The translations under genes and the position numbers were made by a program. The notes below the pieces were generated by a model. That model saw only the letters and a list, made by a program, of their open reading frames with translations. It had not been told where the DNA came from and did not search any database. Of a DNA stretch of 64,000 nt, positions 48,984-53,438 are shown in pieces. The DNA comes from Ignavibacteria bacterium (lineage in GTDB: Bacteria > Bacteroidota > Ignavibacteria > Tepidaquicellales > Tepidaquicellaceae): contig DATAJP010000003.1 in NCBI GenBank assembly GCA_036262055.1, forward strand, positions 806,001-870,000, in the 5' to 3' direction. Within the stretch, counting starts at the first letter, position 1; the number at the start of each line of letters is the position of its first letter.

Positions 48984-50537
48984 TTATTTAAGCTTTATTC
49001 CAATCATTAATTTTCCTATTTCCTGCTGAAGAAGATTTCTATCCTCCTGCAATAAATTCTGAAATTCATTTTTTTCATAGGTCTTAATTATCTCACCGCG
49101 ATAAATGATGCTTAATCTATCAGACAAAGATAGTAACTCATCAATATCCGATGAGATTAGCAAAACTGCTTTGCCTTTATTGCGTTCATCGATAATTTTT
49201 GACTGAATTGAATAAGTGGCTTTGATATCTATGCCTCGCGTCGGGTTATAAAAGACAAGAATGTCATTACCAAGCTCAATTTCACGAGCGCAAATTACTT
49301 TTTGCTGATTTCCTCCCGACAAGTATTTTGTTTTTTGAAGAACATCGGGAGTCCGGATATCATATTTCGAAATTAACCTTAGAGAGTTATCTCTATGCTC
49401 GCTTTTATTATAAATATTTTGTGAAGATTTAATAAAAATATTTTCCGGAATATCATATTCGGCAATTAATCCTTTTTTTATTCTGTCATCAGGAACAACC
49501 GAGATTTTTTTTGTTTTTAAATTTAATTCCCCTGAAAAGTCTTCATCCAATCCGGCAAGAATATCAACAAGTTCACTTTGGCCGTTTCCTTCAACACCGC
49601 AAATACCGTGAATTTCGTATTTATTTAAGTTAAATGAAAAATTTTTGAGATTATTTTTTTCAATCGAGGAAGTGTTCACATTTAGAAATTCAAGAAGAAC
49701 GCTTTCATCATCAATTATTTGTTTTTCAAAATCTGAAATTTCAAACTTCTCTCCTATTATTTCAAATGCAAGTTTATCTATATCAAGATTTTTTGTTTCA
49801 GAGGTAAAAACTAACTCGCCTCTTCGCAGAACCGAGACATAGTCGCTGATTTCTTTTACTTCATTAAGCTTGTGAGTTATGAGAATAACGGTTTTATTTT
49901 CTTCCTTAAATCTTTTTATAATTGCAAACAGGTTTTTAATTTCATCGGGAGACAAAACTGCGGTCGGCTCATCGAGAATTATTATATCGGGATTTCTATA
50001 AAGTATTTTAAGTATCTCAACTTTTTGCTGTTCACCTACGCTCAACGTAGAAATTTTTTTCTTTAAATCGAGATTTAAATTATATTTTGCAATTAAATCA
50101 TTTAAAATTTTATATGTTTTTTTGAAATCTATTTTGGCATTTTTTACAAACTCATTGCCCAGAATCACATTTTCAAGAACGGTAAAGTCCTCGATAAGCA
50201 TAAAATGCTGATAAATCATCCCGATTCCCTTATCAATTGCATCATGCGGCGAAGAAAAATTTATTTCACTGCCACTTAAATAAATGCTTCCGGAATCCGG
50301 CTGATAAACGCCTGCAAGGATTTTCATTAACGTAGACTTTCCCGCGCCGTTTTCTCCGAGAAGGCAATAAATTGAATTAACGGGAATTTGAAGAGAAATA
50401 TTTTTTAATGCGCAAAAATTACCGAAGTTTTTTGAGATGTTTCTAAACTCTAAAGACTGCACTGGACTGTAGATGCTTGTTTCAATTGGCTTTAATATAC
50501 TAAACAATTGATTTATATTTAATGAATTAATAATCAT
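48984..50537 (-). CDS. Double-ATPase subunit of the nucleoside-type ABC importer
   Basis: From ATG 50537 the product is 517 aa with two ABC domains, as in YufO, RbsA and MglA. Domain 1 has Walker A GENGAGKSTLMK and signature LSVGEQQKVEIL. Domain 2 has a degenerate Walker A (GVEGNGQSELVD) and signature LSGGNQQKVICARE, also usual for the family. The frame stays open to 50624 but that would run into the divergent gene, so I prefer 50537; GTG 50462, just before LEFRNISKNFG, is an equally plausible start. It powers nucleoside or purine uptake with the two downstream permeases. Only 7 bp separate it from the divergent TTG start if 50537 is right. Confidence 0.87.
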   Translation of the reverse strand: MIINSLNINQLFSILKPIETSIYSPVQSLEFRNISKNFGNFCALKNISLQIPVNSIYCLLGENGAGKSTLMKILAGVYQPDSGSIYLSGSEINFSSPHDAIDKGIGMIYQHFMLIEDFTVLENVILGNEFVKNAKIDFKKTYKILNDLIAKYNLNLDLKKKISTLSVGEQQKVEILKILYRNPDIIILDEPTAVLSPDEIKNLFAIIKRFKEENKTVILITHKLNEVKEISDYVSVLRRGELVFTSETKNLDIDKLAFEIIGEKFEISDFEKQIIDDESVLLEFLNVNTSSIEKNNLKNFSFNLNKYEIHGICGVEGNGQSELVDILAGLDEDFSGELNLKTKKISVVPDDRIKKGLIAEYDIPENIFIKSSQNIYNKSEHRDNSLRLISKYDIRTPDVLQKTKYLSGGNQQKVICAREIELGNDILVFYNPTRGIDIKATYSIQSKIIDERNKGKAVLLISSDIDELLSLSDRLSIIYRGEIIKTYEKNEFQNLLQEDRNLLQQEIGKLMIGIKLK

Positions 50538-50544
50538 TAGCTTA

Positions 50545-51609
50545 TTGGAACAGGAACGAAAAAGGTCAAATAAGAAAAAACCCGTTACCGATAATCTCTG
50601 CGGTCTCTCCGAGATACAATTCAAGGAAATTTATAAATTTTTGGTTTTATACTCATCAATCCAAAATCAATCATCAGGTATTACTCAGGCTATTCTTTGC
50701 CTGCTCCTGAAGCATAACAGCGATTGGGTTTATACGGATAACGACACATCGATTTATAAAATGTTATGGGGTTCAAATGAAAAAAATAAAATTTTCAGAA
50801 ACTCAAACGACATTACGAAATATTTAATACCAATGAAGACAGCGTTTGAGCATAAAGAAAATTTAAGTGATGAAATTGTTCTTGTTGATTTGAGTTATGA
50901 CTCAAATGCGAAAGGAGAATTATTGGATAATTTATTAACTTCACGCGAGCATGAATTAAATATTATTTTTAATATTAATACTGATGACATTAATAATTTG
51001 AATATTTTGAATCCTGCGGTTATTAATTTAATTGAAGTTGATGAAAACAATTTTTTTGAAACATTTAATCATATAAAATCCGGAGTTAATAGCTTCAAAA
51101 AAGGGAATAAACCTCTGGTGATTCTTAATCAAGTAACCGGAATTACTTCATTGGAAAGTTTTGAAAATTACTTAAAAGAAAATAAAATTTTTTCAAAAAA
51201 AGAACTTGATACGATTAAAGAAGAAGCTCTTAATGATAATCCCGGCTCAGCAGAGGAATTTAATGCTTATGAACTAAGCGGCGAAAGTGATGAGCTATTG
51301 GTGATATTAATCGGCAAGAGTAAATTAAACGATGATGTTCAGAAGCTTTATAGTGACGATTTAAAATTCAACCTTCTTACAATTTTAAACATTTCTGATG
51401 TAAACGAAGGATTAATATGCGGTTCAGTAAATAAATGCGGAAAGGTATTAATTATTTATGACCATAAAGAACTTGAAATTATTTCAAACCGCGTATTAAG
51501 GATGGTTATTGAAAATTGTTTTGAGAATTTAGACGCACCCGTGAGGACATTAAATTCCTCCGACATAAAACAAATTAAAAATAAAATCGAAGAATTATTG
51601 AGTTACTAA
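50545..51609 (+). CDS. Decayed transketolase-family protein (DXS/E1-like), probable pseudoenzyme
   Basis: The product is 354 aa from TTG 50545. The N-terminal part (about 38-150) can be aligned by eye with the TPP domain of DXS or E1 proteins: ITQAILCLLLKHNSDWVYTD, then EIVLVDLS where GDG would be, then GELLDNLLTSREHELNIIFN. The pyrimidine-binding domain expected next is missing. Residues about 245-350 resemble the transketolase C-terminal domain (KCGKVLIIYDHKELEI, FENLDAPVRTLNSSD). The cofactor motif GDG-N is not present, so catalysis is unlikely. A regulatory or structural role beside lpdA is possible. The assignment is tentative and rests on remembered family patterns. Its stop overlaps the convergent DUF2905 stop. 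Confidence 0.5.
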   Translation: MEQERKRSNKKKPVTDNLCGLSEIQFKEIYKFLVLYSSIQNQSSGITQAILCLLLKHNSDWVYTDNDTSIYKMLWGSNEKNKIFRNSNDITKYLIPMKTAFEHKENLSDEIVLVDLSYDSNAKGELLDNLLTSREHELNIIFNINTDDINNLNILNPAVINLIEVDENNFFETFNHIKSGVNSFKKGNKPLVILNQVTGITSLESFENYLKENKIFSKKELDTIKEEALNDNPGSAEEFNAYELSGESDELLVILIGKSKLNDDVQKLYSDDLKFNLLTILNISDVNEGLICGSVNKCGKVLIIYDHKELEIISNRVLRMVIENCFENLDAPVRTLNSSDIKQIKNKIEELLSY

Positions 51610-51836
51610 TTTGATTTAAAATATCTTATCAAGTAAAAAATAAGAGAAAGAATTATACTGATTACAATGCACGTTACAATCGGGAAATAAATCTCAAAGT
51701 TTTTTCCTTTGATTGAAATGTCGCCGGGCAACTTGCCGATAAAAGGAATACGATTGAAGAGCATTAAAATCCCTCCAACTACAACAATTACAATCCCCGT
51801 ATAAATTAATATTTTTCCTAAATTATAAGAGTTCAT
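51606..51836 (-). CDS. DUF2905 membrane protein
   Basis: The product is 76 aa, taking ATG 51836 as start because the conserved family sequence begins NLGKILIYTGI. A frame extension upstream to 51863 adds only MLFLFIIIS. It has two TM helices around the conserved RIPFIGKLPGDISIKGKNFE and YFPIVTCIVISIILSLIFY. DUF2905 proteins are small inner-membrane proteins of unknown role. Its start lies inside the end of a 33-codon frame, and its stop overlaps the stop of the convergent gene by four bases. Confidence 0.8.
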   Translation of the reverse strand: MNSYNLGKILIYTGIVIVVVGGILMLFNRIPFIGKLPGDISIKGKNFEIYFPIVTCIVISIILSLIFYLIRYFKSN

Positions 51837-51924
51837 CGAAATAATTATAAATAAGAATAACAATTGCGATTATTATGATAATCGATGTAATAAACAAGAT
51901 GGATTTAAAGAGTTTTTCGAACAT
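51823..51924 (-). CDS. Putative 33-aa membrane peptide
   Basis: Starting at ATG 51924, the frame encodes 33 residues (MFEKLFKSILFITS, then a run of Ile/Val, then YNYFDELL) and stops at 51823. A basic-aromatic N-terminus, one TM helix and an acidic end look like a genuine micro-protein. It overlaps the DUF2905 start by 14 bp in another frame, which would couple translation. Such short A+T-rich frames also arise by chance, so confidence is limited. Confidence 0.4.
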   Translation of the reverse strand: MFEKLFKSILFITSIIIIIAIVILIYNYFDELL

Positions 51925-52031: not shown

Positions 52032-53438
52032 ATGCAAGAATTTGACGTGGTTGTAATAGGAAGCGGACCGGGCGGCTACACCGCAGCGGTGAGAGCGGCA
52101 CAATTAGGATTTAAAACTGCAATTATTGAACGCGACCGTTTGGGCGGAGTTTGTCTTAATTGGGGATGTATCCCGACAAAAGCATTGCTGAAAAATGCGG
52201 AAATAATGAATACGCTTGGACATTTGAAAGATTATGCTCTCAGCGCTGATAATATTTCATTTGATTTTCCAAAAATCATTGCAAGGTCAAGAGGTGTTGC
52301 CGATAAATCTGAGCAGGGTGTAAAATATTTGATGAAGAAAAATAAAATTACCGTTTTTGTAGGAAGTGCATACATAAATAAAGATAAGACAATAAAAATT
52401 ACAGGCAAAGACGGAAAAGTGCTTGAGACAATTAAAAGCAAGCATACGATTATTGCAACAGGCGCAAGAGCAAGGACTCTGCCCGGAATAAAATTCGATG
52501 AGAAAAAAATTCTTTCATCAACCGGAGCAATGATTCAGGAAAAAGTGCCCAAAACAATGGTTATCGTCGGAAGCGGAGCAATCGGAGCTGAATTTGCATA
52601 CTTCTATAATGCTTTCGGAACTGAAGTTACAATAATTGAAATGCTTCCAAGCATTTTACCTGTAGAAGATAAAGAAATTTCAGACGTTGTTGCAAAGGAG
52701 TTCAAGAAAAAAGGAATCAAGATTTTTACAGACACAAAGACAGAATCAATAGAAGTGAAAGGCAACAAAGTTCTTACAAAAGTTTCAGGCAAGACAAATG
52801 AAACCCTTGAATCCGATTGTGTGTTGCTTGCAATAGGTGTTATGGGAAACATTGAAGACATGGGACTTGAAAATGCCGGAATTGAGCTTTACAAAAATAC
52901 TGTTAAGGTTGATAAGGATTACAAAACAAACGTTCCCGGATTTTATGCAATCGGCGACTGCGCATTGATTGACGCGAAAGGAAAACCATTTCTTGCTCAT
53001 GTTGCCTCTGCTGAGGCAGTTAATTGCGTAGAAAAAATAAAAGGGCTGGATGCAATCGATTTAGACTATTTAAACATTCCGGGATGTACATATTGCATAC
53101 CGCAGGTTGCATCAGTCGGTTTAACCGAGGAAAAAGCAAAAGCGACAGGATACGAAGTTAAAGTTGGCAAGTTTCCTTATTCTGCAAACGGAAAAGCGCG
53201 CGGAACTGGAGAAACTGCAGGTATGGTAAAACTGATTTTTGACAAGAAATTTGATGAGCTAATCGGAGCGCATATTGTTGGAGCTGAAGCAACTGAGATT
53301 ATCAGTGAGCTTGTGATGGCAAAAACACTTGAAGGAACAGGAAAAAGCATAATTCAGACTGTTCATGCGCATCCTTCATATGCGGAGTCTATTCTTGAGG
53401 CAGCAGGCGTGGCTCACGGCGAGGCAATAAATATATAA
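52032..53438 (+). CDS. lpdA: Dihydrolipoyl dehydrogenase
   Basis: This flavoprotein reoxidises dihydrolipoamide in the 2-oxo acid dehydrogenase complexes and the glycine cleavage system. The 468-aa product has FAD-binding GSGPGGYTAAVRAAQ, the redox disulfide GGVCLNWGCIPTK (Cys41, Cys46), NAD-binding VGSGAIGAEFAYF, GDCALID, and the catalytic His-Glu dyad in HAHPSYAESILEAA (about 446-451). All key residues are present. E1 and E2 subunits are not adjacent, except for the decayed E1-like gene upstream on the same strand. Confidence 0.96.
   Translation: MQEFDVVVIGSGPGGYTAAVRAAQLGFKTAIIERDRLGGVCLNWGCIPTKALLKNAEIMNTLGHLKDYALSADNISFDFPKIIARSRGVADKSEQGVKYLMKKNKITVFVGSAYINKDKTIKITGKDGKVLETIKSKHTIIATGARARTLPGIKFDEKKILSSTGAMIQEKVPKTMVIVGSGAIGAEFAYFYNAFGTEVTIIEMLPSILPVEDKEISDVVAKEFKKKGIKIFTDTKTESIEVKGNKVLTKVSGKTNETLESDCVLLAIGVMGNIEDMGLENAGIELYKNTVKVDKDYKTNVPGFYAIGDCALIDAKGKPFLAHVASAEAVNCVEKIKGLDAIDLDYLNIPGCTYCIPQVASVGLTEEKAKATGYEVKVGKFPYSANGKARGTGETAGMVKLIFDKKFDELIGAHIVGAEATEIISELVMAKTLEGTGKSIIQTVHAHPSYAESILEAAGVAHGEAINI

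Follow-up and report, generated by a model that had tools for sequence, protein, structure and literature searches.

Next to lpdA in the genome of an Ignavibacteria bacterium lies a reading frame whose product, here called pseudo-E1, was described in a first-pass annotation, made from the letters of the sequence, as a transketolase-family pseudoenzyme that could regulate a 2-oxo acid dehydrogenase or DXS by mimicking a subunit. Two questions follow: from which enzyme does this protein descend, and is its frame a decaying relic or one that selection has kept? The window that we analysed is a stretch of 64,000 nucleotides (contig DATAJP010000003.1 of assembly GCA_036262055.1).

Gene structure and neighbouring genes

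Table 1. Features of the pseudo-E1 locus, in positions of the window
Feature	Position	Strand	Remark or basis
ABC importer ATPase	48984..50462	-	likely GTG start at 50462
pseudo-E1, degenerate, shortened fused E1-alpha/beta, 354 aa	50545..51609	+	TTG start; start codon uncertain
E1-alpha (PP/TPP) domain remnant, residues 11-227	50575..51225	+	hhalign and multiple alignment
Junction; alpha C-terminal linker and entire beta pyrimidine-binding domain gone (about 180 + 29 residues)	51226..51333	+	alignment
E1-beta transketolase_C domain, residues 264-354	51334..51606	+	Pfam, PDB matches, hhalign, alignment
DUF2905 small membrane protein, positional marker	51606..51863	-	adjoins lpdA in several relatives
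lpdA, dihydrolipoyl dehydrogenase (E3)	52032..53438	+	linked to intact type III E1ab in relatives

The frame runs uninterrupted through 354 codons from its TTG to the stop. Both ends of the protein are retained and there are no internal stops and no frameshifts, so that the marks of a pseudogene are absent. Upstream of the TTG the frame stays open for 11 more codons, and this TTG is the sole usual start codon ahead of the conserved N-terminal block. Synonymous codon choice is mid-range among the long genes of the window, and codons 1-59 have poor coding statistics. The frame is real and codes like the neighbouring genes. A search for a promoter and a terminator of pseudo-E1 gave none above chance.

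The genes for lpdA and the importer lie where the first-pass annotation had placed them. As originally listed (window 48984-50624), the importer ATPase overlaps the 5' end of pseudo-E1, because the listed reading frame has an over-long start. Homology with the sister genus points to the GTG as the likely start, which would leave a divergent gap of 82 bp between the two genes. Elsewhere in the window (1064-27472), seven large minus-strand genes encoding 316 to 1904 aa lie in a run; five of them carry sorting tails of the Por secretion system (T9SS), and no further Pfam domain was found in these genes at E<=1e-6.

Domain organization and loss of catalytic residues

Single-sequence searches detect the C-terminal domain alone, and the N-terminal two thirds of pseudo-E1 give no match. 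Residues 266-341 match Pfam Transketolase_C (PF02780) with 22.0 bits (E=1.6e-4), slightly below the curated cut-off of 25.9 bits, and residues 263-342 match the NCBIfam PDH E1-beta model (E=1e-5). The E1-beta chains of BCKDH and PDH are weak matches in the PDB. The alpha part is revealed by profile alignment only, there being no Pfam match to PF00676 (E1_dh) even at E<=10. When compared by hhalign with a profile built from the fused E1-alpha/beta proteins of related genomes, residues 11-227 align with E1-alpha 10-312 (probability 97%; E=7e-11, a value that refers to one single comparison), and residues 264-354 align with the end of E1-beta up to its last residue. Apart from the deleted parts, pseudo-E1 is collinear with this profile over almost its full length.

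The multiple alignment of pseudo-E1 with fused E1s, which was built via bridging sequences and pieces, locates the losses. The alpha part misses 17, 28, 17 and 24 residues, the beta pyrimidine domain and its surroundings about 183 and 29, and the C-terminal part 24 and 16. Six of the 118 invariant columns of the beta Pyr domain are aligned in pseudo-E1, probably by chance. Conservation is strongest in the E1-beta C-terminal domain, which has the motif ENCFENLDAP; the protein ends in an aromatic residue (Y354), as nearly all fused E1s do.

In the Mg-TPP motif, where relatives have GEG...N, pseudo-E1 reads S117-Y118-D119 and has T146 in place of the Mg-ligand Asn. The deletions in the alpha part remove regions matching the inner and outer active-site loops, as defined for E1p (PMC2663715), and the catalytic Glu and His of the beta part are gone along with the pyrimidine-binding domain. 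With the Mg-TPP motif, the loops and the beta catalytic residues all lost, the anatomy of pseudo-E1 excludes catalysis by the protein itself. Pseudo-E1 is an enzyme homologue without catalytic residues, which is one of the marks of a pseudoenzyme.

These results bear out much of the earlier description. Membership of the transketolase superfamily and the pseudoenzyme state are supported by the Transketolase_C match, the alignment to E1-alpha and the lost residues. The "traces of a TPP domain" lacking GDG correspond to the alpha part with its altered motif; the whole beta Pyr domain is missing, as had been said; and the C-terminal domain is recognizably retained by the PF02780 and PDH E1-beta matches.

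An AF2 model (pLDDT 71.6, pTM 0.53), for which a shallow homologue alignment was supplied, has two Rossmann-like domains and resembles E1-alpha and E1-beta structures; a DXS structure stands low in its fold list, at rank 45. Modelling from the single sequence fails (pLDDT 33.6), which means that the better model depends on the homologues. An E1-like fold is plausible from this modelling.

Descent from a fused E1ab linked to lpdA

Some relatives in the family have an additional, lpdA-linked fused 2-oxoacid dehydrogenase E1ab, which we label type III. Fused E1ab proteins combine PF00676, PF02779 and PF02780, and the parent length is about 686 aa, twice that of pseudo-E1. Pseudo-E1 is 25-28% identical to type III, as against 19-21% to two other fused E1 types, and in a phylogenetic tree it groups with type III with support of 99/99. 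Its end branch is very long, at 8.3 changes per column compared with 0.04-0.2 for the orthologues, which makes the placement delicate and means that the support must be read with care.

Micro-synteny supports the same descent independently of the tree. In three relatives (G015, G023, G025), type III E1ab lies immediately upstream of lpdA, in the position and on the strand of pseudo-E1. In three others (G005, G008, G014) the two are separated by small genes and a gene for a TrkA-type channel, and in two more (G019, G027) lpdA is within reach of type III E1ab. The order in G014 is E1ab, channel, DUF2905, lpdA, and that in the window is pseudo-E1, DUF2905, lpdA, with equal relative strands. The DUF2905 gene stands divergently beside lpdA in the window and occurs near lpdA in six relatives (L091, L097, L098, L102, L104, L105). 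Both genomes of the sister genus (G003, G017) have an lpdA that is 80-81% identical, followed after about 200 bp by the importer ATPase gene, with no E1 left between the two. At one sister-genus locus (L089:9299-9505), pseudo-E1 and DUF2905 correspond to a reduced stretch of about 200 bp that separates lpdA from the importer operon, with nucleotide similarity confined to its edges.

Judged by alignment, tree and locus, pseudo-E1 descends from a pyruvate-dehydrogenase-type fused E1ab, the lpdA-linked type III. Besides a fused enzyme of 808 aa, the source genome has two other intact fused E1s, whose types occur in L106 and L107; with two intact fused E1s left, loss of the type III activity would be tolerable.

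In the intact type III E1ab proteins (L092:9419-11479, L095:7290-9371, L100:7509-9566 and others), GEG replaces GDG in the Mg-TPP motif, and this GEG is invariant across the type III E1ab of 12 genomes. The fused E1s of Flagellimonas (L039, L040) likewise read GEGA.

Decay or selection

The 321 residues that are invariant in 12 type III proteins divide in pseudo-E1 into 142 that are aligned and 179 that are deleted. Pseudo-E1 keeps 51 of the 142 (36%); a type III orthologue held out as a control keeps 97-100% of the residues common to the other eleven. For the neutral simulation, three type III genes were mutated to the retention of pseudo-E1 in 1800 runs under 18 settings that varied start gene, base composition and transition bias. 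The mean number of stops was 12-18 and the minimum 3, compared with none in pseudo-E1, so that the frame is open beyond chance, as the first-pass annotation had argued. There are at least seven large deletions, and every homologous block is still in frame; this would arise by chance with a probability of about 5e-4 for seven deletions, the number of separate events being uncertain. We also compared pseudo-E1 with stop-free neutral simulations that were aligned as it was. The hydrophobic pattern at changed positions is retained with r of 0.42-0.46, against 0.32 +/- 0.06 in these controls, and the excess of conservative substitutions ranges from about 1 sd by BLOSUM scores to 2 sd by hydrophobicity.

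The open frame, the in-frame deletions and the hydrophobic pattern make long selection on the frame probable. The constraint would be much weaker than that on the enzyme and of a different kind, and pseudo-E1 is probably a lineage-specific pseudoenzyme, present as a single copy, rather than a simple pseudogene. A recent pseudogene is disfavoured by the neutral simulations and the in-frame deletions.

In the first-pass annotation, finding the full-length enzyme in relatives at this site was to count as a sign of plain gene decay. Since relatives do have intact type III E1ab at the same site, the situation it described is the one we find. The conclusion it drew does not follow, because neutral decay would leave many stops where pseudo-E1 has none. 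A type III pseudogene in late decay, without function and with a frame open by accident, nevertheless agrees with that full-length gene, with the complete loss of the gene in the sister genus, the extremely long branch, the deletion of 179 of the 321 invariant residues and the poor 5' coding statistics. It would have to account for the missing stops, for large deletions that are all in frame, for codon usage that is normal across most of pseudo-E1, and for a hydrophobic pattern retained better than under neutrality. We consider it unlikely.

Searches for the short form returned normal E1s or nothing. No orthologue of pseudo-E1 was found in 29 genomes of the family, 44 of the order, 391 of the class and 395 of the phylum. 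Neither GTDB contigs and viral contigs searched with the pseudo-E1 protein, where very near records may lie outside the contig scans, nor viral contigs searched with the type III profile yielded one. Among the genomes searched, pseudo-E1 is a single copy in one species.

A possible role in the dehydrogenase complex

We favour, with moderate confidence, the explanation that pseudo-E1 is the remnant of a third, lpdA-linked fused E1ab that has lost catalysis while its reading frame stayed under selection. The starting point would have been a third copy of a fused pyruvate-type E1ab, linked to lpdA. In-frame deletions and very rapid substitution would then have stripped it, in this lineage, of the beta Pyr domain, the active-site loops of the alpha part and the Mg-TPP ligands, with selection keeping the reading frame throughout. 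The product would be an expressed, non-catalytic protein, folding as an alpha-like Rossmann domain and a transketolase_C domain. Several points count against this explanation: the single copy in one species, the poor first 59 codons, the TTG start, the lack of a clear promoter, the small excess of conservative substitutions and the failure of the single-sequence model. Having no counterpart in the sister genus, pseudo-E1 must be dispensable there.

The contact of the E2 peripheral domain on the E1 heterotetramer probably involves the C-terminal domains of E1-beta. In Geobacillus stearothermophilus, the E1 heterotetramer of the complex has one E2 peripheral domain on its two-fold axis (PMC2663715). 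Retention of the C-terminal domain therefore makes E2 contact or E1 pairing by pseudo-E1 possible. Perhaps the contact is with the binding domain of E2 or with the E1s that remain, and speculatively the protein might serve as a decoy or an assembly factor by touching E2 or by pairing with the intact fused E1s. We offer this PSBD-contact argument as a lead only, and regulation of the dehydrogenase complex by pseudo-E1 as a hypothesis.

The frame might instead have been selected for a role outside dehydrogenase complexes, such as binding of another ligand by the Rossmann domain or support of the nucleoside importer. Most of the former E1-specific surfaces and loops are lost, and the divergent importer operon is close by. 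The best-kept block is nevertheless the E1-beta C-terminal domain, together with the terminal aromatic residue; as for the importer, adjacency is its sole link to pseudo-E1, and the sister genus has the importer without pseudo-E1. Such a role appears rather improbable to us. A derivative of DXS or transketolase that mimics a subunit of those enzymes, for which the transketolase_C domain common to all these families and the low-ranking DXS structure might speak, is largely refuted and very improbable, and the suggested link to DXS falls with it: the best matches are to E1-beta and fused E1ab, the alignment of the alpha part leads to E1ab, as do tree and locus, and nothing favours DXS.

Relation to known pseudoenzymes

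Like type III fused E1ab, pseudo-E1 has collinear ends, the alpha-domain skeleton, transketolase_C and a site upstream of DUF2905 and lpdA; unlike it, pseudo-E1 is half as long, lacks the Pyr domain, the active-site loops and the Mg-TPP motif, and retains about a third of the invariant residues where aligned. The TKTL1-type transketolase-like proteins, which are eukaryotic and derive from a true transketolase, keep the Pyr domain and lack, through deletion, part of the TPP site. Pseudo-E1 shares with them the superfamily and a TPP site damaged by deletion, but it is bacterial, adjoins lpdA, to which they have no link, and has no Pyr domain. PDHX (protein X), the E3-binding protein of mammalian PDH, is a pseudo-E2, derived from a component of the complex and catalytically dead (PMC6270654). 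Pseudo-E1 likewise derives from a complex component and is catalytically dead, and PDHX is a model for the usefulness of such a relic; PDHX, however, comes from E2, is conserved across species and has known binding domains, whereas the parent of pseudo-E1 is an E1 and a single copy of it was found. In the open-access literature we found no description of a bacterial pseudo-E1.

Protein X shows that 2-oxoacid dehydrogenase complexes can include pseudoenzymes on the E2 side. In the case of pseudo-E1, comparison with the relatives reveals which enzyme was ancestral, where it lay and in which direction the loss went, so that the passage from enzyme to pseudoenzyme is traceable. If pseudo-E1 binds the complex, it would represent a new way of regulating the make-up of the complex.
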